From assembly GCA_023247445.1 (NCBI GenBank), contig JAHFGL010000027.1, positions 1 to 32,344 of the forward strand: a stretch of 32,344 nt of DNA. The letters run 5' to 3'. The position numbers were made by a program, and so were the translations under genes. The notes under the pieces are model-generated. The model had not been told where the DNA came from. It made no database searches and worked only from the letters and a program-made list of their open reading frames with translations. Position 1 is the stretch's first letter, and the number at the start of each line of letters is the position of its first letter. The stretch is from Candidatus Omnitrophota bacterium (GTDB taxonomy: Bacteria > Omnitrophota > Gorgyraeia > Zapsychrales > Zapsychraceae). Positions 4,389-32,344 of the stretch are shown here, piece after piece.

Positions 4389-5063
4389 ATGAGTCGAGGA
4401 AATTTAAAAATTATTTTTGGATTATTATCGGCGATTGTGTTGACAAGTCCGTGTTACGCCCAAATGGATAATGCCCCTATGGTTATGGATAACGCTATCA
4501 TGACGCCACCAATGGAAGAGGTTATGATAAACACAGTTGAACCGATTACTGAAATTGTGGGAGAAGATGCTGCTGAAGATGATATGGCGGACGGGGTTGA
4601 TGCCAGTGCACAGGCCATTGCCATTATTGAAGGGACTAAAGAAGATTCAGAACTTTACGGCGAGGTTGAATTTGTCGAAACCAAAGACGGTCTTTCCGTC
4701 ACGGTGGAAGTTTATAATGCTCCTATCGGTAAACATGGTATCCATATTCATGAAAATGGAAGTTGTGAGGATGCGGGTAATGCTGCGGGTGGACATTTTA
4801 ATCCTGATTCCATGCAGCATGGAATGGTTGCCAACGATGGTCTTGCCAAAGCCCATGTGGGTGATTTAGGCAACATTGAAGTTGATCAATATGGTGACGG
4901 TTTATTAACGACGTTTATTCCCGGCGCAAGTTTGGCGCAAGGAAAATATAGCGTAATTGGCAAAGCGATTATCCTGCATGAAAAAGAAGATGATTTTGGT
5001 CAGCCAACAGGCAATGCAGGTTCCCGCATTGGTTGCGGCGTTATTGAGAAAACAACGGAATAA
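4389..5063 (+). CDS. sodC: Cu/Zn superoxide dismutase, secreted, with Met-rich N-terminal extension
   Basis: 'HGIHIHENGSCEDAGNAAGGHFNP...AHVGDLGN...HEKEDDFG...GSRIGCGVI' carries the Cu/Zn SOD ligands; N-terminal signal peptide. Confidence 0.93.
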   Translation: MSRGNLKIIFGLLSAIVLTSPCYAQMDNAPMVMDNAIMTPPMEEVMINTVEPITEIVGEDAAEDDMADGVDASAQAIAIIEGTKEDSELYGEVEFVETKDGLSVTVEVYNAPIGKHGIHIHENGSCEDAGNAAGGHFNPDSMQHGMVANDGLAKAHVGDLGNIEVDQYGDGLLTTFIPGASLAQGKYSVIGKAIILHEKEDDFGQPTGNAGSRIGCGVIEKTTE

Positions 5064-5708: not shown

Positions 5709-7676
5709 ATGTCCAAGGGAATAAAAGAAATCCCAAAACTTACCGTTGATGCACTTCTAACAGAAAATCGCGTATTTAAGCCTAGCGCAGAATTTACCAA
5801 ACAAGCGAACGTTAAAAATGATTCGCTTCATAAGAAAGCCGCAAAAGATCGTCTAGCTTTCTGGGCTGAGTGTGCCGAAAAGTTGGATTGGTTTAAGCCG
5901 TGGGATAAAGTTCTTGAGTGGAAAGTCCCCTTTTCAAAATGGTTCGTCGGAGGGAAATTAAATGCGAGCTTTAACTGTCTCGATCGACATATCAAGGCAG
6001 GACTTGGTAATAAAACAGCTATTTTTTGGGAGGGCGAGCCGGCTGGTGAACAAAAAATTATTAGCTACGATGAAGCTTATAAGCAGGTTAATAAATTAGC
6101 CAATGTTTTTAAATCACTTGGGATCAAAAAAGGCGATCGTGTCGCAATTTATATGCCGATGATTCCTGAGGCGGCATACGCGATGCTTGCCTGCAGTCGC
6201 ATTGGGGCGATTCACACCGTTGTCTTTGGTGGATTTAGTGCCGATGCACTGCGTGAACGAATGAATGATGCGCAAGCTAAACTTCTTATTACCGCTGATG
6301 GGGGTTACCGTCGCGGAAAAGTCTTACCGCTTAAAGATATTGCGGATGAGGCGGTCGCTGGTGCGCCAACGATTAAACATGTTCTGGTTGTTAAGCGCGC
6401 GAAAAATAATATCACGATGCATGAAAAACGCGACCTTTGGTATCACGAGCTCATGGGCAAGGCCAAAGATTTTTGTGAACCCGAACACATGGATGCGGAA
6501 GATGTCTTGTTTATTCTTTATACATCAGGGACAACGGGCAAGCCCAAAGGAATTATCCACACAACCGGCGGTTATCTGACAGGTGTTACTAATACTATGC
6601 AGTGGGTTTTTGATCTAAAATCCAAAGACGTTTTTTGGTGCACGGCGGATGTGGGTTGGGTCACGGGGCATAGTTATTTTGTTTACGGACCGATGGCAAA
6701 TGCCGCTACCCAAGTTATGTATGAAGGCACGCCGGATTTTCCTGAACGTAATCGTTTCTGGAAAATTATTGAAAAATATAAAGTCACGATTTTTTATACG
6801 GCTCCGACGGCTATTCGTGCTTTTATGAAATGGGGAACGAAGTGGGTGGAGGATTGTAAGTTAACTAGCTTACGTTTATTAGGCAGCGTTGGCGAACCGA
6901 TTAATCCCGAGGCCTGGATTTGGTATCACTTAAATATCGGTAAACAAAAATGTCCGATTGTTGATACCTGGTGGCAGACGGAAACGGGATGTATTTTGAT
7001 TGCGCCGCTACCTGGCATCACTGCGACAAAACCTGGATCAGCGACAAAACCTTTGCCGGGCATTGAAACAGTTGTGCTTGATGACGATGGAAAAGAAATT
7101 AAAGAAGGTGGCGGGATATTGGCCATCAAAAGTCCGTGGCCGTCGATGCTACGCGGGATTTGGCGAGATCCAGAACGTTACAAAAAAACGTACTGGAGCC
7201 GCTGGCCGAATACTTACTTTCCTGGTGATGGCGCAAAGAAGGATGAAGACGGTTACCTGTGGCTTTTGGGTCGTGTTGACGACATTATGCTAGTCGCCGG
7301 CCACAACATTTCAACGATGGAAGTTGAAAGTGCGCTGGTCGATAATCCAATCGTGGCTGAATCCGCGGTCGTTGGAATCACTGATGAGTTAAAAGGTCAG
7401 GCGATTGCTGCGTTTGTTATTCTTAAAGAAGGCAACAACCCAAGTGAAGAATCCCAAAATATTTTAAAGGCGCATGTCGTTAAGAAAATTGGTGCCATTG
7501 CCCGTCCAGAAAAAATTATCTTTACGCCAGAGCTTCCAAAAACCCGCAGCGGAAAGATTATGCGAAGGCTTTTACGCGACATCGCCGAAGGCCGCGCGCT
7601 TGGCGACGTCACCACTCTTGCCGATGCCAGTGTTGTTGAAAGTTTAAAGAGTAAATACGAAGATAAAGAAGGGTAG
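5709..7676 (+). CDS. acsA: Acetyl-CoA synthetase (AMP-forming)
   Basis: 655 aa; '[20 protein letters not shown]', 'WWQTETG', '[17 protein letters not shown]'; RBS-like 'gaaggagg' upstream. Confidence 0.96.
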
Positions 7677-12093: not shown

Positions 12094-13461
12094 ATGATTG
12101 ATAAACAAACTATTCGTAAATACGATATCGCTGGGCCGCGCTATACAAGTTATCCCACGGCTCCCAATTGGACGACAGATGTTAATCAAGATACTTATAT
12201 TGAAAAGTTAAAGGTGTTTGGTAAGACCAATAAAACACTTTCGCTTTATATTCATTTACCGTTTTGTGAGTCCATGTGTACTTATTGCGCCTGCAATGTT
12301 GTCATCCGCAAAAAAGATGTTAAGTATGCCGAAGAATATTTAAAATACTTGTTTAAAGAAATTGATTTAGTTGCGCGATATATCGGGCGCAATATGCCGG
12401 TTAAACAATTTCACTGGGGGGGAGGAACGCCAACTTTTTTAAACGAAGATCAGATCGAACGACTTTTTAAAAAGGTTGCTGAAAATTTTAACATAGATTT
12501 TTCGGGGGAAATTGCCATTGAAATTGATCCAAGGACTATCGATAAAAGTAAAGTTAAGAAATTAAAAGACCTTGGATTTAATCGTATCTCAATGGGGATT
12601 CAGGATTTTGATTCAGAGGTTCAAAAAAGTGTTAACCGTCTTCAGCCTTTTGAATTAGTTAGGGAATTTAACGATTGGTGCCGAGAGCTAAAATTTCTTT
12701 CCATTAATTTTGATTTAATCTATGGACTTCCTCATCAAACTAAAGAAAGTTTTGATCAAACATTACGAAATATTTTTGATTTACGGCCAGACCGAATTGC
12801 TTTGTATAGCTTTGCGTATGTTCCCTGGCTTAAAAAACATCAAAATAAGTTAGATCCGCAAACCTTACCATCGAACGATCAAAAGTTAGACATTTTTTTA
12901 AGTGCCCGTCAGCAATTTTTAGATCATGGTTATCAAGCGATCGCCATGGATCATTTCGCACTTAAAGATGATGAGTTAGCCAAGGCCTTTAATCGGGGAA
13001 CTCTTTATCGAAATTTTATGGGCTATACGGTTAAACCCGCGGATGAATATCTTGGTTTGGGATTAACATCGATTGGGTTCTTGGAAAATACATTTATTCA
13101 AAATTATAAAGAGCTTCCCGAATATTATCGCTTACTTAAAGAAGAAACTTTGCCTGTTGAGCGTGGAAAAGTTTTAAGTGTTGACGATCAAATAAGGCAA
13201 TGGGTTATTAGTTCCTTAATGTGTCAGTTCAAACTTGATAAAAATATTTTTAAGGAAAAGTTTTCAATTTCTTTTGATGAATATTTTGCGCACGAGAAAG
13301 AGCACATTGAGCAATGCGTTAGCGATAACCTTATTGAAACACGATCAAATCTTATTTGCGTGACCGAATTGGGTAAGATTTTTATCCGCAATGTCTGCAT
13401 GGGATTTGATTGGTATTTAAAGCAGCAGGGAGCTCATAAACGATTTTCAAAAACAGTCTAA
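12094..13461 (+). CDS. hemN: Oxygen-independent coproporphyrinogen III oxidase
   Basis: 455 aa; 'GPRYTSYPTAPNW' and radical SAM 'CESMCTYCAC' (CX3CX2CXC) distinguishing true HemN. Confidence 0.93.
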   Translation: MIDKQTIRKYDIAGPRYTSYPTAPNWTTDVNQDTYIEKLKVFGKTNKTLSLYIHLPFCESMCTYCACNVVIRKKDVKYAEEYLKYLFKEIDLVARYIGRNMPVKQFHWGGGTPTFLNEDQIERLFKKVAENFNIDFSGEIAIEIDPRTIDKSKVKKLKDLGFNRISMGIQDFDSEVQKSVNRLQPFELVREFNDWCRELKFLSINFDLIYGLPHQTKESFDQTLRNIFDLRPDRIALYSFAYVPWLKKHQNKLDPQTLPSNDQKLDIFLSARQQFLDHGYQAIAMDHFALKDDELAKAFNRGTLYRNFMGYTVKPADEYLGLGLTSIGFLENTFIQNYKELPEYYRLLKEETLPVERGKVLSVDDQIRQWVISSLMCQFKLDKNIFKEKFSISFDEYFAHEKEHIEQCVSDNLIETRSNLICVTELGKIFIRNVCMGFDWYLKQQGAHKRFSKTV

Positions 13462-13535: not shown

Positions 13536-14552
13536 ATGACAAACCAACCACTTCTCCTACAAGCCTTCGAAGGCAAAAATAAAACTATTCCTGTCTGGTT
13601 CATGCGCCAGGCCGGGCGATACCTTCCAGAATATCGAGCATTTAAAGAAAAATATTCGCTGGATCAAATGTTCCACACGCCGGAGGTGGCGGCTAAGATC
13701 ACGTGTCTTCCTATTGATATCTTAGGCGTTGATGCGGCCATTTTATTTGCGGACATTCTTACATTACCGTCAAAAATGGGGTTCCATATTCGATTTGATA
13801 ATAAAGAAGGGCCGGTGATTGAAAATCCAATCAAAGATGTCGATGATATCAAACGCATGCATAACTTTAGTGATTTGTCGTTTGTTAAAGAAACGATTCA
13901 AAATGTTAACCATGATTTGCCAGCGCATGTTCCTTTAATTGGTTTTGCTGGATCGCCATTTACCGTCTTAACATATTTAATTGAAGGCGGCTCTTCCGTT
14001 AGCTATGCCAAGACGTTTCAATTTGTGTCGTATCATCCCGCGGCATTTCACCAAGCCATGAAAATATTGACCAAAAATACAATTGACTATTTAAATCTAC
14101 AAAAAAAAGCTGGCATCAAGGCATTTCAAATTTTTGACACCTGGGCGGGGATTCTACGCCCAACGGACTATGCCCATTTTATCTTGCCCTATATTCAAGA
14201 CATTTTTGCCACGGTTGATCTTCCATCAATTTATTACGTTAAAAATTCCAATCATCTCCTGCCACTGATGGATAAATCAAAAGCTGATTTCTTATCTGTC
14301 GATCACACCGTTGTCCTCGGACATCATAGAACTCTTGCGCATACAAAAAAAGGCGTCCAAGGTAATTTGTTCAATGGACTTTTATATGCCAATAAAAAGA
14401 CGCTTACAAAAGAGGTTCATGATGTTCTACAAGGAGCCCGCAAACACAAACGTTATATCTTCAATTTAAGTCATGGAGTTTTTCCTGATACAAACGTTAA
14501 TCAGCTTAAAACTATTGTTGATTTAGTCCATCGTTTTAAGTGGAAGACTTAA
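13536..14552 (+). CDS. hemE: Uroporphyrinogen decarboxylase
   Basis: 338 aa; 'PVWFMRQAGRYLPEYRAFK', 'AAILFADIL', 'GFAGSPFTVLTYLIEGG'. Confidence 0.96.
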   Translation: MTNQPLLLQAFEGKNKTIPVWFMRQAGRYLPEYRAFKEKYSLDQMFHTPEVAAKITCLPIDILGVDAAILFADILTLPSKMGFHIRFDNKEGPVIENPIKDVDDIKRMHNFSDLSFVKETIQNVNHDLPAHVPLIGFAGSPFTVLTYLIEGGSSVSYAKTFQFVSYHPAAFHQAMKILTKNTIDYLNLQKKAGIKAFQIFDTWAGILRPTDYAHFILPYIQDIFATVDLPSIYYVKNSNHLLPLMDKSKADFLSVDHTVVLGHHRTLAHTKKGVQGNLFNGLLYANKKTLTKEVHDVLQGARKHKRYIFNLSHGVFPDTNVNQLKTIVDLVHRFKWKT

Positions 14553-14553
14553 A

Positions 14554-15912
14554 ATGTCTAAACAGATTATTATTGTTGGCGGGGGCATAAGCGGTCTTGC
14601 CCTGCTACACTATTTAAAAGTTAAATATTATTTTCAAGAAGACATTGTCATTCGACTTCTTGAAAAGAATGATTATGCTGGTGGAACAATCCGCACAATA
14701 GCTAAGGATGGATGTCTTTTTGAGATGGGGCCCAATGGGTTTCTAAACATTAATCCACGGACGCTGCAGCTTATTAATGATGTGCATTTAACGCGCAACT
14801 TAATTGAGGCCAAGAAAGATTCAAAGTTGCGGTTCATTTATCAGAAGGGAAGATTATATCCTTTGCCGAGCGATCCACTAAGCTTTTTAAACTCACCACT
14901 TTTGAATCCATTTGATAAAATTCGTATTTTGTTTGAACCATTTATTTTTAAAAAAAATAATCCGCATGAAACAATTTATGATTTTGGAAAACGTCGATTT
15001 GGTCAGAAGGCAGCGAATCTTTTTATTGACCCAATGATTAGTGGTATTTATGGCGGAGATGCTAAGAGAATTAACTTTAAAGCTGCTTTTCCGAAAGTTT
15101 ACGCAATGGAGCAAGAGTCAGGTTCTGTTATTAAGGCTTTAATTAAAGGAGGGAAGAAGGATAAGGGGAGAATTCCTAAAGCGCTTTTTTCATTTTTCAA
15201 TGGTATGTCAGAACTTGTTCATACAATTTCAAATCGATACCAGGATGACATTCAACTAAATCAAGATGTAAAAATGATTTCAACTCATCAAAATCGCTAT
15301 ATTGTTCACGCTAATGATAAGCAATATACCGCTGATGAATTGTTTATTTGCACTCCTGCATTTCAGGCCGCGTCATTGTTTAAAAAATTCGATGCCACAC
15401 TTGCCGAGCAGCTTGAACAAATTAATTACGTTCCCATGATTGTTGTTGGACTAATGTATTCAGAGAAAGCATTTAAAAATCTTCCCAAAGGGTATGGATA
15501 CCTTATCCCTTCAGCCCAAAAGAAAGAAATATTAGGTGTCTTGGTTGAAAGTAATATCTTTACCAATCGTTGTGTGCCTGGCCAAATTGTTTTTCGTGTG
15601 ATGATAGGAGGCGGCCGGTTTCCTGATATTCTTAAAAAATCAGAAGAAGAATTAGTTGCCCTAGCGATAAATGAAATCAAGTCAACGTATGAAACATTGG
15701 GTAATCCTAAAACAATATTTTTTACTGGTTGGTCGAAAGCAATTCCGCAATATGATGGAAACTATGTCCTATTTAAAGATTATTGGCAGGCCCACCAAAT
15801 CAAGTCAAAAAATCTGCATCTTGTGGCGAATTATCTGGAAGGGGTTTCCTTTAATGACTGCATTGAGAATGCATATCAGGCGGCAGTAAAATCTTCCCTT
15901 AATACCCATTAA
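14554..15912 (+). CDS. hemY: Protoporphyrinogen oxidase, HemY/PPOX type (FAD)
   Basis: 452 aa; 'IIVGGGISGLALLHYL', 'FEMGPNGFL', 'IDPMISGIYGGDAKRINFKAAFPKVYAMEQESGSVIKALI'; adjacent to hemE. Confidence 0.93.
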   Translation: MSKQIIIVGGGISGLALLHYLKVKYYFQEDIVIRLLEKNDYAGGTIRTIAKDGCLFEMGPNGFLNINPRTLQLINDVHLTRNLIEAKKDSKLRFIYQKGRLYPLPSDPLSFLNSPLLNPFDKIRILFEPFIFKKNNPHETIYDFGKRRFGQKAANLFIDPMISGIYGGDAKRINFKAAFPKVYAMEQESGSVIKALIKGGKKDKGRIPKALFSFFNGMSELVHTISNRYQDDIQLNQDVKMISTHQNRYIVHANDKQYTADELFICTPAFQAASLFKKFDATLAEQLEQINYVPMIVVGLMYSEKAFKNLPKGYGYLIPSAQKKEILGVLVESNIFTNRCVPGQIVFRVMIGGGRFPDILKKSEEELVALAINEIKSTYETLGNPKTIFFTGWSKAIPQYDGNYVLFKDYWQAHQIKSKNLHLVANYLEGVSFNDCIENAYQAAVKSSLNTH

Positions 15913-18669: not shown

Positions 18670-19356
18670 ATGTCGATCCCCATAAACATTTACAGAAGCT
18701 TTCTTCTTTGTTTGATTCTTTGTGCCACTTCCTGTGGCCAAAATAATCCTAAACACGAATATCGCGAGATTGTTATTGAATCGCCAGAGCGTGCGGCCTC
18801 CGCCATGCAAAATCCACATCAACTATCTTCAGCAAAGGGGCTAGCCATACCACCATCGATGAATGTTAAAGATGTCGAAACACAAAAAATGTTGGATGCT
18901 TCCGTTGCGGATATTTCTTTAGTCTGGAAAACACCACCCACTTGGTCGCAATCAAAAGGCTCCGGAATGCGGCTGGTGACTTTTAAAAACAAAAATGAGA
19001 GTGAGCCCATTGAGTGCAGCATTGTCTCTTTGGGAGGAATGGCCGGAGGACTTGAATCAAATATTGTGCGGTGGATGCGCCAGATTAATTTAACAGATTT
19101 GCCCGAAGATAAAGTTAGTCAATTCGTTGATGATTATGAAGGATTAACCAGTGATGGGGGACTTGCGATTAAAATTTTTGATTTTACAAAGCTTCAAGCG
19201 CAAGAGCCCGATTCCGTGCCCTCGATGATCGGCGCGATCGTAACAATTGGCGACAAATCTATTTTTGTTAAAATGACGGGAACCAAATCGACCGTTATTA
19301 AAAATTACACTTCTTTTAAAGAACTTTGCCAGTCGCTTAAAACTCCCAATGATTAA
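18670..19356 (+). CDS. Putative lipoprotein, cytochrome c biogenesis-associated
   Basis: 228 aa; N-terminal hydrophobic segment ending 'LCATSC|GQNN'; overlaps resB start. Confidence 0.6.
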   Translation: MSIPINIYRSFLLCLILCATSCGQNNPKHEYREIVIESPERAASAMQNPHQLSSAKGLAIPPSMNVKDVETQKMLDASVADISLVWKTPPTWSQSKGSGMRLVTFKNKNESEPIECSIVSLGGMAGGLESNIVRWMRQINLTDLPEDKVSQFVDDYEGLTSDGGLAIKIFDFTKLQAQEPDSVPSMIGAIVTIGDKSIFVKMTGTKSTVIKNYTSFKELCQSLKTPND

Positions 19357-20491
19357 ACGTAATCAATCAATAAAAAGTAATCGTCTACTACAACTGGGAT
19401 CTTCGATTAAGATTACCGTGACATGTCTTTCATTACTTTTTATTCTTACCCTTTGGGGAACGATCGCCCAAGTTCAAACCGGATTATATATTGCTCAAGA
19501 GCGATTTTTTCATTCATGGTATTTTTTGGCGCTTGGATTTATTCCGTTTCCTGGGGCTAAATTAGTTCTTAGCATTCTTTTTGTTAATTTAGTTTGTGTG
19601 GCCATCACACGGTTTGTTTATAAGTTAAGTCATATTGGAATTCTTATCATACATTTTGGATTGCTGATTTATTTTGTGTCAGCGTATGTGACGCTTAATA
19701 TCGTTAAAGAATCTCAGGTGACGCTCATGGAAGGCGATGGGACCAATGTTTCAACTGCGTATCATGACTGGGAAATTTCGGTCTGGGCCGAGCGTTCCGA
19801 TAAAAAGCGTGATGTCATTGGCTATGACACAAGAAATTTAAAACCCGGTGTCATCATTGCCCTTAATGAACTTGGCTTTCAATTAATCACCAAAAGTTAT
19901 TTCCCTAATGCAACGGCGTATACGTCAGCACCTGAGAACGCGAAAGAAATAATGCTCAATGCCTCTGGAATCAAATATTTGACCAAAGTTAATCTTAATA
20001 AAGAACCAGAAAAAAATATCCCGGGAAGTGTTTTTGAACTGCAAACCAACGATGGTCAAGATATTAACATTCTTGTCTATGGAGGAGAATCAAAACCAAC
20101 TCAGTTTAAAGTTGACGATAATAAATATAATATTATTTTGCGTCGTAAACGTTTTGTATTGCCATTTACAATTGTCCTTAAAGATTTTGAGATGGAGCTT
20201 CATCCGGGAACTAATATCGCCAGATCATATAAGAGTAAAGTTGAGGTTGAAGGTGGAGGGTTAAATCGCGAAGCGATCATTTATATGAATCATCCGCTGC
20301 GGTATAAAGATTATACATTTTATCAGGCGTCGTATGCGGTTGATCAACTCGGCCGCGAATTATCGACACTTGCCGTTGTCAAAAACACAGGACAATTGTT
20401 GCCGTACATTGCCTGTTTTGTCACATTCGCTGGATTAAGTACGCATTTTTTACTGATGGCGTTTAAAAGTAAGAAGAAAAATAAAAAATGA
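19349..20491 (+). CDS. resB: ResB-like cytochrome c biogenesis protein
   Basis: 380 aa; three N-terminal TMs, periplasmic domain, 'MNHPLRYKDYTFYQASY' ResB motif, C-terminal TM. Confidence 0.88.
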   Translation: MIKRNQSIKSNRLLQLGSSIKITVTCLSLLFILTLWGTIAQVQTGLYIAQERFFHSWYFLALGFIPFPGAKLVLSILFVNLVCVAITRFVYKLSHIGILIIHFGLLIYFVSAYVTLNIVKESQVTLMEGDGTNVSTAYHDWEISVWAERSDKKRDVIGYDTRNLKPGVIIALNELGFQLITKSYFPNATAYTSAPENAKEIMLNASGIKYLTKVNLNKEPEKNIPGSVFELQTNDGQDINILVYGGESKPTQFKVDDNKYNIILRRKRFVLPFTIVLKDFEMELHPGTNIARSYKSKVEVEGGGLNREAIIYMNHPLRYKDYTFYQASYAVDQLGRELSTLAVVKNTGQLLPYIACFVTFAGLSTHFLLMAFKSKKKNKK

Positions 20492-22515
20492 AAAAGATTA
20501 AATTCACGCGATATGCGAATTTCCGTCATCCTGAGCGAAGCGAAGGATCTCTTAGGAGATTCTTCGGCCTGCGGCCTCAGAATGACGATGATATAAAAAA
20601 TCTTGCACACGGCGTTAAATTCATAACATTATTTTTTGTTTTCCTAATCTGCACTTCAACTCTTTATGCAGAGTCAGAAACTAAAATATTATCTCCAAAA
20701 GGGCTGACATCGCTTGAGACCTTTAAACACATCGCTGTTTTAGAAAATGGCCGGATCAAACCCATGGACACGTATGCCCGCAATATTTTGTTACAACTTT
20801 CCGGGAAAACAACCTTTGATAGAAAAGAGGCCATTAATTGGTTGGCCAAACTTTTATTCGCGCCAGAGACAACCAAGGAAGATAAAATATTTTTGATTAA
20901 CAATCCTGACATTGCCGATGCCTTAGGGATCGCCGCGGAAAAATCTAGACGTTATAGTTTCACACAACTCGAACCCCATTTAGATCGATTAAGTGAGCTT
21001 GCCACCGCTGCGCAAGGGATGGACCCGAAACAACGCGATTTGGTTGAGAATGAACTAGTTCGTGTCTATGACAACGTTAAACTCTACGCATCGTTATCGC
21101 TAAGCTTTTCATTTGCTTTTCCTAATCCAGATTTTACGATCAAAAATTCTAACAATTTATATCAATTGAATCTTCCCTTAAATGTTGAGCAATTTACATT
21201 TATCGATTTAGCCCAGCGCGCTGATCTTTTACAAAAATTGACAAAGCCGTTGGAACTGAAACTTCCCGAAAAATGGACGCCAGCTGAAAAGGAAATTATT
21301 CTTGTTGTTAACAATCTTTATCAATGGGCACAAAATTATCATCAATTGCCACCAACAATTATTCCAGCCTATTCATCAAAAGAAGAAGTCTGGATTAGTC
21401 CGTGGGATGCTATAGGAGAGGGCCTTTCATCTGTCTTTGGACGAAAGGAACTACTGGCCTTGGGACAACTTCCCGGCGCTTATTGGAATGGGAAACAAAT
21501 TGATTTTGATATGGCGGCACGGACATTTACGGATAATGTTGAGAAACGACTCGTTCAAAAGGAAGTCAAGCAGCCGCGGCACATTGGTCTTGAGCTATTA
21601 TTTAACCAGCTGAATCTATTTTTTACAGCTAAAATATTTTACTTTCTTTCTTTCCTGACATTTCTTATTTCGCTGGTGATTTCAAACAAAAATATCCGTA
21701 TTATCGGTTGGAGTGCGATTATTTTAGCCTTTCTTCCCCATGCGTTGGCGCTTATTTGTCGTATCATTATTCTAGAGCGGCCGCCGGTATCAAACCTTTA
21801 CGAAACCTTTATTTTTGTCGGTTTCGTGACGGCACTAGTTGGCATCATTATTGAGTTAATTTATCAGCAGTGGATCGGCATTGTTATATCGAGCATTTGT
21901 GGATTTACGTTTCTAACGATCGCCAGCAAGTTTAGTGTTGAAGGCGATACACTGCAGATGCTTGTTGCTGTTTTAAATTCCAATTTTTGGTTGGGTACAC
22001 ATGTTTTAAGTATTACGATTGGCTATGCGGGAACGTGTGTGGCGGGGGTTGTTGGTCACATCTATCTTTTGCAAGCGATCAGTAAACCAAAAGATAAAAA
22101 ACGATTAGAAACCACATATCATATTTTGATCGGTGCTCTCGGGTTTGCCTTGACCATGGCCTTTTTGGGAACAAATTTAGGGGGAATCTGGGCGGATCAA
22201 TCATGGGGAAGATTTTGGGGCTGGGATCCGAAAGAAAACGGCGCGCTTCTAATTATTTTATGGATTGCGCTTTTATTTCATTTACGTGTTGGAAAAATGA
22301 TCGGGCCATTAGGCTTAGCCGTGGGTAGTGCGGCAAGCATTATGGTTGTCATGTGGGCGTGGTTTGGTGTTAATTTACTTAGCATTGGACTTCATTCATA
22401 TGGATTTACCTCAGGGCTTGCGACTAATTTAATTATTTATGGCATCATTCAAATCTTATTTATTGTAATCGTGACTCCCATGGCTTACAAAAAATTACAA
22501 TCAACAAAACTATGA
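20488..22515 (+). CDS. ccsA: CcsA-type cytochrome c biogenesis protein with large N-terminal periplasmic domain
   Basis: 675 aa; WWD-type motif 'WADQSWGRFWGWDPKENGALLIILWIALLFHLR'; ATGA overlap with resB; N-terminus contains translated palindromic repeat. Confidence 0.92.
   Translation: MKKIKFTRYANFRHPERSEGSLRRFFGLRPQNDDDIKNLAHGVKFITLFFVFLICTSTLYAESETKILSPKGLTSLETFKHIAVLENGRIKPMDTYARNILLQLSGKTTFDRKEAINWLAKLLFAPETTKEDKIFLINNPDIADALGIAAEKSRRYSFTQLEPHLDRLSELATAAQGMDPKQRDLVENELVRVYDNVKLYASLSLSFSFAFPNPDFTIKNSNNLYQLNLPLNVEQFTFIDLAQRADLLQKLTKPLELKLPEKWTPAEKEIILVVNNLYQWAQNYHQLPPTIIPAYSSKEEVWISPWDAIGEGLSSVFGRKELLALGQLPGAYWNGKQIDFDMAARTFTDNVEKRLVQKEVKQPRHIGLELLFNQLNLFFTAKIFYFLSFLTFLISLVISNKNIRIIGWSAIILAFLPHALALICRIIILERPPVSNLYETFIFVGFVTALVGIIIELIYQQWIGIVISSICGFTFLTIASKFSVEGDTLQMLVAVLNSNFWLGTHVLSITIGYAGTCVAGVVGHIYLLQAISKPKDKKRLETTYHILIGALGFALTMAFLGTNLGGIWADQSWGRFWGWDPKENGALLIILWIALLFHLRVGKMIGPLGLAVGSAASIMVVMWAWFGVNLLSIGLHSYGFTSGLATNLIIYGIIQILFIVIVTPMAYKKLQSTKL
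20524..20587. repeat. CGTCATCCTGAGCGAAGCGAAGGATCT-type palindromic repeat inside ccsA ORF
   Basis: cgtcatcctgagcgaagcgaaggatctcttaggagattcttcggcctgcggcctcagaatgacg, imperfect inverted repeat; second copy at 24557. Confidence 0.85.
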
Positions 22516-28763: not shown

Positions 28764-29837
28764 ATGAATATTTCCGTAATTGGTTTAAACCACAAAGCTG
28801 CCCCGATTGACATTCGCGAAAAATTTTATTTAAATCCAACGCAGCAAGAACTTTTCTTAAGCGAACTTAAAAGTAATCCTGCCGTCGCCGAAAGTTTTAT
28901 CCTTTCAACGTGCAACCGCACTGAAGTTTATTCCCATAATATTGATGACCGGCTTCATCCAACACTTTTTATGCGGATGATCATGAATATTAAAAAAATT
29001 CAATTTACGACTGAATTTGAAAGTTATTTTTATCATTTAAAAGATGAGGAGGCTATTGATCATCTATTTAAAGTTTCTTCCGGACTTGATTCACTTGTCC
29101 TTGGTGAAAAACAAATCTTAGGCCAAGTCAAAGAGGCCTTTGAACGAGCGCGCGCCATGGGGATGTTTTCAAAACATTTTAATGTGCTTTCGAACTTAGC
29201 CATCCGTGCTGGGAAAAAGGCTCAGACAGAAACTAATATTAGTTTGGGTGGATCATCGATTAGCTGGGCGGCTATTGAAATGGCCGAAAAACATTTAGGA
29301 ACGCTTGCTGATAAGTCGATTTTAATTATCGGCGCTGGGAAAATGAGCGAGCTGGCCGTTACCCAAATTCAAAATAAAGGATTAAAAAAATTATATTTAA
29401 TGAATCGAACACCTGAGAATGCCATGACGCTCGCGGAAAAATATGGGGGAGAGGCTGTTGGATTTTGTGATATTAAAGAGATCTTAAGTTCAGTCGATTT
29501 GTGTATCTGTTCCGTTGGCGCGCCACACTACATCATTGATAAAAGTACGGTTCAACGTGTGTTGCCAGCTACGGGATCAAAAAAGATAATGTTTATTGAT
29601 ATTTCAATGCCACGTAACATTGATCCTGCTGTTGCGGATCTTAATGGTGTGTTGTTGTACACCATCGATGATTTAAAAGAAGTCGTTGACTTAAACATGA
29701 AACTCCGTGAACAATCGATTGCCCAAGTCCATGAGATCATCCAGCAAAAAATCACGGAATATGAACAAAAAATTAGTCGCCTCAACAATGATTATGCCAC
29801 GAGTACCCTTGAGAATCGTGAAACAATCAATAGTTAA
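28764..29837 (+). CDS. hemA: Glutamyl-tRNA reductase, short form
   Basis: 'GLNHKAAPIDIREKF', 'FILSTCNRTEVYS', 'GLDSLVLGEKQILGQVKEAF', 'IIGAGKMSELA'; ends at 357 aa. Confidence 0.95.
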   Translation: MNISVIGLNHKAAPIDIREKFYLNPTQQELFLSELKSNPAVAESFILSTCNRTEVYSHNIDDRLHPTLFMRMIMNIKKIQFTTEFESYFYHLKDEEAIDHLFKVSSGLDSLVLGEKQILGQVKEAFERARAMGMFSKHFNVLSNLAIRAGKKAQTETNISLGGSSISWAAIEMAEKHLGTLADKSILIIGAGKMSELAVTQIQNKGLKKLYLMNRTPENAMTLAEKYGGEAVGFCDIKEILSSVDLCICSVGAPHYIIDKSTVQRVLPATGSKKIMFIDISMPRNIDPAVADLNGVLLYTIDDLKEVVDLNMKLREQSIAQVHEIIQQKITEYEQKISRLNNDYATSTLENRETINS

Positions 29838-29875: not shown

Positions 29876-30901
29876 ATGATCAATGAATCAAAAATAATGG
29901 TAGCCCTTTTAAACATGGGGGGACCAAAGACTAATGAAGATGTGAAAGAATTTCAAAAACATCTTTTTAATGATGCGCGTTTGATTCGTTTTCCTTTGTC
30001 TTTTTTGTTGCAAGGATTGTTTGCCTGGGCGCTCGTTAAATTTCGTCTGGAAGCGGTTAAGGAGCGTTATAAATTGATCGGTGGGGGAAGTCCCATTTAT
30101 AAATCGACAGAAAATCAGGTCAAGGCTCTTGCGAAGGAACTAAATCGTCGCGGAAGAAATATCGATGTCACCTATTCCTTTAATTACAGCCCACCTTATC
30201 CAACAAACACAATCAATCAAATTCAGGCAGCAAATAAAGAATACATTTTGCCGTTAAGCTTATATCCACATTATTCGAAAGCCACAACAGGATCAAATAT
30301 GTTTTATTTAAAAAAAGCGGCGCAAGAACAATATCCCAGCTTGAAGTTTATCGAAACACCATCGTATCATCTTCATGATGGTTACATTGAAGCATTTGTG
30401 GATCGAATTCAAGAGGCGCTTAAGCCAGGAGAGTCGCTAGATGATTTTTATCTCATTTTTTCCGCTCATGGCTTACCTGTCTATTATTTAATGGAAGGCG
30501 ATCCGTACCCATTTTTAATTTCGCAAACCGTTGCCAAAATTTTAACCCATCTTCATCGAACGCAGGATTGGATTATTGCGTATCAAAGTGCGGTCGGACC
30601 ATTTAAATGGCTTGAACCAGCAACTGAAAAAGTGCTCCATGCGCTAGCCACAGAAGGGAAGAAAAAGGTTCTTATTATTCCGATTGCTTTTGTTGGGGAT
30701 CATATTGAAACAACATGTGAAATTGATATGGAATACCGACAGCTCGCGCAAGAAGCTGGTATCACCGATTACCGTATGTCAAAAGCCATTGAATGTCATC
30801 CACGATTTATTGAAGCGTTGGCCGACACGGTAGAAGCTTCTCTTAATAAGGGGCTGGAGAAATCTAGTTTGAAAACGTTGATGGAACCTGCAAACGTTTA
30901 G
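29876..30901 (+). CDS. hemH: Ferrochelatase
   Basis: 341 aa; 'VALLNMGGPKTNEDVKEF', 'FSAHGLP', 'YQSAVGPFKWLEP', 'PIAFVGDHIETTCEID'. Confidence 0.97.
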   Translation: MINESKIMVALLNMGGPKTNEDVKEFQKHLFNDARLIRFPLSFLLQGLFAWALVKFRLEAVKERYKLIGGGSPIYKSTENQVKALAKELNRRGRNIDVTYSFNYSPPYPTNTINQIQAANKEYILPLSLYPHYSKATTGSNMFYLKKAAQEQYPSLKFIETPSYHLHDGYIEAFVDRIQEALKPGESLDDFYLIFSAHGLPVYYLMEGDPYPFLISQTVAKILTHLHRTQDWIIAYQSAVGPFKWLEPATEKVLHALATEGKKKVLIIPIAFVGDHIETTCEIDMEYRQLAQEAGITDYRMSKAIECHPRFIEALADTVEASLNKGLEKSSLKTLMEPANV

Positions 30902-30909
30902 GAATCTTT

Positions 30910-31215
30910 ATGATTGATCAAATTGTTATTGTCATTTATGGATTGTTTTTGTTGGTAGGCGCTTTTATCGGCTTTAAAGCCGGCAGCAAAGTTTCCTTAA
31001 TTATGGGGTTGCTATCAAGCAGTGTCGTCTTTCTAGGTCTTTACCTATCACGCCAAAATTTTAAAATGGGATTTGGGATTATTGCTGGAGTGTCGATAGT
31101 TCTTGTTCTGGTGTTCATCAAACGATATTTAAAAACAAAGAAAGTTATGCCAGCGATTCCGTTGATTGTTTTAAGTTTGATTGCTTTAATAGTTTCAGTT
31201 AGAAATTTTATTTAA
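30910..31215 (+). CDS. TMEM14-family small membrane protein
   Basis: 101 aa, about four TMs; 'GAFIGFKAGSKVSLIMGLLS...KRYLKTKKVMPA' matches the TMEM14 pattern. Confidence 0.85.
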   Translation: MIDQIVIVIYGLFLLVGAFIGFKAGSKVSLIMGLLSSSVVFLGLYLSRQNFKMGFGIIAGVSIVLVLVFIKRYLKTKKVMPAIPLIVLSLIALIVSVRNFI

Positions 31216-31219
31216 TTTT

Positions 31220-31435
31220 ATGCCGACAAATAACAAGAATCCAATGTTCCAAAATAACAATGTCCTTTTAGGGCTCAATATGGCCTTAGGTATTGGGTTG
31301 TTTAGTTTCGCCGGGCATTGGGTGGATGAAAAGAGGGGAACTTCCCCTTGGGGAATTTTGGGTGGAATGTTTGTTGGACTATGTTACGCGGGATATGAGC
31401 TTTGGAAATTTATACAACAGATGAATAAACATTAA
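31220..31435 (+). CDS. atpZ: AtpZ/AtpI-family F0F1-ATPase assembly-associated protein
   Basis: 71 aa, two TMs, 'GLFSFAGHWVDEKRGTSPWGILGGMFVGLCYAGYELWKFI'. Confidence 0.82.
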   Translation: MPTNNKNPMFQNNNVLLGLNMALGIGLFSFAGHWVDEKRGTSPWGILGGMFVGLCYAGYELWKFIQQMNKH

Positions 31436-31823: not shown

Positions 31824-32344
31824 ATGGACTTTGATTTTAAAAATCATATTTTGCATCACATGAATGATACGTATCAATGGCATCTGCCGTTTCCGTTTGT
31901 TCCTCCTATCAATCTACCAGAACCAATCACGCTTCATGCGCTCATGCTTTTGTTTGGGGCTTTTTTAGTTATCCTCACGTTTTGTTTTATTTATCGTAAG
32001 AATGATCGCGTACCAAGAGGCTTCACCAATCTTCTAGAAAGTTTAATTATATTTATACGTGATGATATTGCCATCGGCTGTTTAGGAGAAGAAGAGGGGC
32101 CGCGCTTTACCCCATACTTATGTAGTTTATTCTTTTTTATTTTGATTTTAAACGTACTTGGATTGATCCCGATTTTTGCGCCGGCTACTTCTAATATAAA
32201 TATTACCGGAGCGCTCGCGAGTGTTACCTTTATATTTATGGTTTTTGGTGCGATTCGTAAAAATGGTTTTAAAGGTTTTCTTAAAACTTTTGTTCCGTCC
32301 GGAATGCCACTGCCAATTCTTTTTATCGTTGTGACACTTGAGTT
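31824..32344 (+). CDS. atpB: ATP synthase F0 subunit a (truncated by window end)
   Basis: Manual translation MDFDFKNHILHHMNDTYQWHLPFPF...GEEEGPRFTPYLCSLFFFILILNVLGLIPIFAPATSNINITGALA...; open to window end, absent from ORF track. Confidence 0.9.
   Translation, partial: MDFDFKNHILHHMNDTYQWHLPFPFVPPINLPEPITLHALMLLFGAFLVILTFCFIYRKNDRVPRGFTNLLESLIIFIRDDIAIGCLGEEEGPRFTPYLCSLFFFILILNVLGLIPIFAPATSNINITGALASVTFIFMVFGAIRKNGFKGFLKTFVPSGMPLPILFIVVTLE

Follow-up and report, generated by a model that had tools for sequence, protein, structure and literature searches.

Whether a bacterial member of the TMEM14 family takes part in heme synthesis is the question raised by a small gene that directly follows the ferrochelatase gene hemH in the 32,344-nucleotide stretch of Omnitrophota DNA analysed here (hereafter, the window). 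Different cargoes have been named for TMEM14 proteins, porphyrin for TMEM14C and fatty acids for FAX1, and a lineage that keeps TMEM14 clustered with ferrochelatase lends the tetrapyrrole option support that is independent though indirect. Among the papers searched, none named TMEM14 together with hemH. The original prediction, made from this locus, held that the protein may move or present porphyrinogen to HemH, which would make the heme role ancestral to eukaryotic TMEM14C.

The TMEM14 gene and its surroundings in the window

The product of the 101-aa ORF matched the Pfam profile PF03647 (Tmemb_14) over profile positions 2-91 of 92 with 64.3 bits (E 1.7e-17), against a gathering cut-off of 24.8 bits for this family. 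The motifs from which the original prediction had recognised a TMEM14 signature are present and form part of the family signature, and the profile match that it proposed as a check was obtained. When a profile of the protein and its relatives was searched against the PDB, human TMEM14C (2los, 1.4e-14) and TMEM14A (2loo/2lop, 3e-11) were matched and nothing else was. The AlphaFold2 model (mean pLDDT 86.9, pTM 0.75) placed helices at 2-23, 27-49, 51-76, and 83-100; Tmemb_14 proteins are expected to be about 100 aa long and to have four hydrophobic helices, of which three span the membrane. A Foldseek search of the model against the PDB did not return 2los or 2loo and gave nothing under E 0.001. 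Across 66 bacterial TMEM14 sequences, G17, G21, S26, S29, F69, and P81 were invariant, and neither histidine nor cysteine was among the invariant residues, a point against the tetrapyrrole reading favoured below. Judged from its sequence, the ORF encodes a genuine bacterial Tmemb_14 protein, and the 2.29-Mb source genome holds no other Tmemb_14 gene.

The start codon of TMEM14 lies 8 nt past the hemH stop, as had been read originally, and only 4 nt separate TMEM14 from atpZ, all on one strand. Directly downstream, the ATP-synthase operon begins with atpZ, an atpI-like ORF, and atpB (Table 1), a neighbourhood absent from the original prediction. The atpI-like ORF had no weighty match in Pfam or NCBIfam, and one relative of it was found, at 32% identity, in locus L012. 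HemY and HemA, which had been cited as further heme context, were both found by profile, together with hemN and hemE. A promoter and terminator scan between hemH and the atp genes gave sites no more numerous than in shuffled sequence.

Table 1. Heme, respiratory, and ATP-synthase features of the window
Feature	Position	Strand	Basis
hemN, oxygen-independent coproporphyrinogen oxidase type	12094..13461	+	Radical_SAM 6.4e-25 and HemN_C 2.8e-7
hemE, uroporphyrinogen decarboxylase	13536..14552	+	PF01208, E 1.8e-100
hemY, protoporphyrinogen oxidase	14554..15912	+	TIGR00562, E 5.5e-76
resB, system II cytochrome c biogenesis	19349..20491	+	PF05140, 1.8e-12
ccsA, system II cytochrome c biogenesis	20488..22515	+	PF01578, 2.4e-18
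hemA, glutamyl-tRNA reductase	28764..29837	+	TIGR01035, E 2.4e-109
hemH, ferrochelatase, 341 aa	29876..30901	+	TIGR00109, E 2.2e-83; PF00762, 2.1e-93
TMEM14 (Tmemb_14, PF03647), 101 aa, four predicted helices	30910..31215	+	Pfam, PDB profile, AlphaFold2
atpZ-like (F0F1 gene 1), opens the atp operon	31220..31435	+	PF09527, E 7.2e-12
atpI-like small membrane protein, 126 aa	31437..31817	+	Position between atpZ and atpB only
atpB, ATP synthase subunit a, truncated by window end	31824..32342	+	PF00119, E 3.1e-30

Positions 8609-32342 of the window form a long, mostly co-directional island with sdh, hemN-E-Y, resB-ccsA, moeA-mobA-moaD, a Rieske protein, hemA-hemH-TMEM14, and atp genes. Much of this island is conserved throughout the order, and in many of its genomes sdh, hemN, hemE, hemY, resB, ccsA, moeA, mobA, and moaD run in the same direction around the core. 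The setting of TMEM14 is a respiratory and cofactor island rather than a pure heme operon, and adjacency to hem genes alone is therefore weak evidence for a heme function. A Cu/Zn superoxide dismutase is encoded at window positions 4389-5063 (PF00080, E 5.6e-37), consistent with an oxygen-exposed lifestyle; a study of the whole phylum reports that heme synthesis occurs in Omnitrophota but not universally and that aerobic respiration is variable (PMC10066038).

Such a setting admits a second explanation, in which TMEM14 works for the ATP synthase or more generally for the respiratory membrane, for instance as a small assembly or membrane-quality factor near atpZ and atpI, and its position beside hemH is a by-product of the hem-atp linkage. 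The 4-nt gap to atpZ on one strand and the presence of sdh, resB, and ccsA in the island both fit this explanation, which the comparative results below nevertheless make rather unlikely.

Linkage to heme genes within and outside the order

We surveyed 81 genomes of the order, 24 of which had TMEM14 and 38 a ferrochelatase. Spread over six families, 23 of the 24 TMEM14 genes adjoined hemH (16) or hemA (7), and only that of G336 lay away from heme genes. The usual arrangement was hemA-hemH-TMEM14-atpZ-atpI-atpB, followed by the remaining atp genes; in G006, TMEM14 came next after hemH with about 0.55 kb between them. TMEM14 and hemH occurred together in 22 genomes, TMEM14 only in 2, hemH only in 16, and neither in 41 (Fisher p 9e-8, shared descent ignored); the two genomes with TMEM14 only (G347 and G348) were 70% and 51% complete. 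Among the 38 high-quality genomes, the corresponding numbers were 11, 0, 6, and 21 (p 1e-5, shared descent likewise ignored). The linkage between TMEM14 and heme genes in the order is real and kept, far above chance, and the heme-gene context on which the original prediction leaned is borne out at this level.

In most genomes of the order, TMEM14 lies between the hem genes and atpZ/atpB and thus adjoins atpZ equally, which counts against a heme reading and for a role with the ATP synthase. However, the two sides differ in constancy. In four genomes (G012, G015, G029, and G006), a gene of about 564 aa, which in G015 is a member of the Na+/H+ exchanger family, parts TMEM14 from atp while hemH still precedes TMEM14, and in G031 no atp genes come after hemA-hemH-TMEM14. 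Adjacency to hem genes is thus more constant than adjacency to atp genes, which speaks against a service to the ATP synthase.

The ferrochelatase itself can be exchanged. In G275, G281, G358, and G359, the local hemH was absent and a non-orthologous ferrochelatase was encoded elsewhere, and TMEM14 remained beside hemA; in G002, a hemH of a different type preceded hemA-TMEM14. A ferrochelatase type weakly similar to that of the window replaced the cluster type at L028, L029, L030, L031, L032, and L033, mostly elsewhere in the genome, and some genomes with a replaced type left hemA and TMEM14 in place. A HemH-specific partner or subunit is unlikely, because TMEM14 persists after the HemH type has changed. 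Among 25 surveyed genomes, 22 had a HemY above the cut-off and one each had ChdC and HemJ, which indicates a protoporphyrin-dependent pathway. The type of late pathway was rejected as an explanation of TMEM14 presence, because HemY occurred in genomes with and without TMEM14 and ChdC and HemJ were almost absent.

The orthologous HemH of most genomes in the order carries an N-terminal multi-helix membrane extension of about 100-105 aa (e.g., L045:1438-2784 (-) and L042:1177-2508 (+)). This extension contains the conserved motif NIPxGYxRE..PKFS..W..WIHASIP, is without a Pfam match, and was modelled by AlphaFold2 as helices ahead of the ferrochelatase domain. In other Omnitrophota the module occurs as a free protein of 80-100 aa, in some cases beside an ABC-transporter gene. 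An alignment of relatives showed that the window HemH is without it. TMEM14 as a substitute for the extension was rejected, since both occurred in G008, G015, G026, G031, G034, G264, and G361 and neither in G028/G352.

Outside the order, 94 TMEM14 loci of about 2 to 12 kb were examined: 68 from Cyanobacteria, Vampirovibrionia, and Verrucomicrobiota, 10 from other Omnitrophota, and 16 further loci from Verrucomicrobiota. Heme genes (hemA/B/C/D/E/H/L/N/Y) were found at only one of these 94 loci, the cyanobacterial contig L077, and the commonest neighbour families were unrelated to heme. Viewed from hemH, ten further TMEM14-bearing genomes had no TMEM14 nearby. Of 13 TMEM14-bearing outside genomes checked, two, one of them labelled Akkermansia, had no detectable hemH, possibly because the assemblies are incomplete. 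The survey of bacterial TMEM14 neighbourhoods that the original prediction proposed thus turned out negative beyond the order: the linkage is lineage-specific and peculiar to one order of Omnitrophota. Nor were atp genes seen near outside TMEM14 among the 25 commonest neighbour families listed, a further point against a tie to the ATP synthase.

Contig L077 carried two very similar TMEM14 copies (1680-1988 and 5980-6294), one of them 0.5 kb from hemH. We treated this proximity as chance rather than true linkage, since the genes are divergently transcribed, the copies are recent, and the proximity is absent from other cyanobacterial loci. A second TMEM14 group of Omnitrophota (L016, L017, L018, L022, and L023) carried MPDL or MPEL in place of the MPSG/MPAG motif and had no heme-gene linkage; an MFS-transporter-like ORF was seen by eye near TMEM14 in L017 and L018.

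A third explanation is that TMEM14 handles fatty acids or lipids, as does plant FAX1, the Tmemb_14 exporter of plastid fatty acids (PMC4344464), and sits in the cluster by history. The unrelated neighbourhoods of most bacterial TMEM14 genes agree with this, and the retention of TMEM14 after an exchange of HemH suits a role independent of HemH. However, no lipid genes were recognised beside TMEM14 in the order, and a lipid role alone would not predict the co-occurrence with hemH unless aerobic respiration were the shared cause of both. We consider this explanation unlikely.

Descent of the cluster

In nine genomes of the order (G003, G014, G019, G028, G336, G352, G365, G366, and G367), the atp genes come straight after the orthologous hemH and TMEM14 is missing from this junction, which indicates that HemH works without it. 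These genomes bear in two ways on the idea that TMEM14 serves the ATP synthase: the hemH-atp border exists without TMEM14 and so does not depend on it, as a by-product position beside hemH would allow, but the atp operon stands in the same place and dispenses with TMEM14. On the AtpB tree, the presence of TMEM14 required 4 changes, compared with a mean of 8.8 after shuffling, a number consistent with a single early gain followed by about four losses. Because these losses mostly left the hemH-atp linkage intact, TMEM14 appears to be a useful but dispensable accessory.

In a TMEM14 tree of 93 rows and 107 columns, the hem-linked genes formed one clade (support 96/93), which included the unlinked copy of G336, and the TMEM14s of other Omnitrophota formed a separate group. 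Together, the trees suggest that the cluster formed once in the ancestor of the order and then descended vertically, with TMEM14 lost about four times. The G336 gene (L013:1471-1785 (-)) belongs to the hem-linked clade and lies apart from heme genes, and the hemH-atp junction of its own genome has no TMEM14; the gene is possibly a moved copy, a transfer, or a binning error.

As a single event suffices for all linked cases, TMEM14 could also have entered the island once by chance and been kept merely because the cluster was inherited as a block. Against such neutral carry-over, the relatives share only about 35-50% identity, yet have retained an intact frame of 100 aa, the motifs of the family, and their place in the cluster, while other island genes move or vanish. 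This pattern points to selection on the TMEM14 gene and probably on the gene order too, and makes neutral carry-over improbable.

The same tree bears on the idea that the heme role is ancestral to eukaryotic TMEM14C. Eukaryotes were represented by two human sequences only, TMEM14A and TMEM14C, which had a very long branch (2.7 changes per site) and were not specifically joined to the hem-linked clade. Grouping the two human sequences with the hem-linked clade, Verrucomicrobiota, or Cyanobacteria gave AU p values of 0.41, 0.38, and 0.58, respectively, none of which was rejected; the short protein does not let the tree choose among these placements, and the tree speaks neither for nor against the ancestral idea. 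Since the hem-linked genes are one derived clade, a single ancestral event explains the linkage, and it provides no argument for a heme role that predates TMEM14C. With the single linked locus among 94 outside the order, a heme-ancestral origin of TMEM14C is not supported.

Proposed function and comparison with known systems

Taken together, we tentatively favour, with somewhat less than even confidence, the reading that TMEM14, as part of a conserved hemA-hemH-TMEM14-atp cluster, is a dispensable membrane-bound accessory to late heme synthesis. Expressed together with ferrochelatase, the protein would sit in the cytoplasmic membrane as a small bundle of helices, where it may hold or hand on a membrane-soluble tetrapyrrole, either protoporphyrin(ogen) IX or newly made heme, close to HemY, HemH, and the machinery for cytochrome assembly. 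It could thereby keep photoreactive intermediates from accumulating; transport across a compartment border, the task proposed for TMEM14C in mitochondria, would not be part of this role. HemY and HemH act at the same cytoplasmic face, so that bacteria have no obvious need for the delivery of porphyrinogen to HemH that the original prediction envisaged; as there is no border to cross, import is less likely than a role in which porphyrin or heme is handed on or buffered within the membrane. A stronger form, that bacterial TMEM14 is an accessory dedicated to the HemY and HemH steps at the end of heme synthesis, whether as an old property of the family or by independent recruitment, is possible but doubtful. 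If true, it would provide the first prokaryotic genetic system for studying the disputed heme function of the TMEM14 family, and hemA-hemH-TMEM14 is a compact gene set that can be tested in a laboratory bacterium.

The closest bacterial relatives outside the phylum are the Tmemb_14 (UPF0136) proteins of Cyanobacteria, Vampirovibrionia, and Verrucomicrobiota, at about 30-45% identity. Unlike the window TMEM14, they are not heme-linked (1 of 94 loci, other Omnitrophota included). FAX1 of plant plastids belongs to the same Pfam family and has four predicted hydrophobic helices (PMC4344464), a number that the AlphaFold2 model also suggests for the window protein, but it differs in having a plastid-targeting peptide and additional N-terminal sequence, and a lipid gene context is absent here.

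Human TMEM14C (2los), of the inner mitochondrial membrane and likewise of this Pfam family, is required for erythroid heme synthesis and is needed for protoporphyrinogen IX to reach the mitochondrial matrix (PMC4673221). Its mechanism and substrate specificity have been described as uncharacterised, and porphyrin levels were unchanged in Toxoplasma Tmem14c knock-outs (PMC7511413). Unlike mitochondria with TMEM14C, a bacterium needs no transport step between HemY and HemH. In the profile alignment, which covered positions 9-102 of 105, TMEM14C and the window TMEM14 shared the motifs GG..GY.KAGS..SL..G and R....KFMP, and both are associated with late heme synthesis, the window protein by gene linkage.
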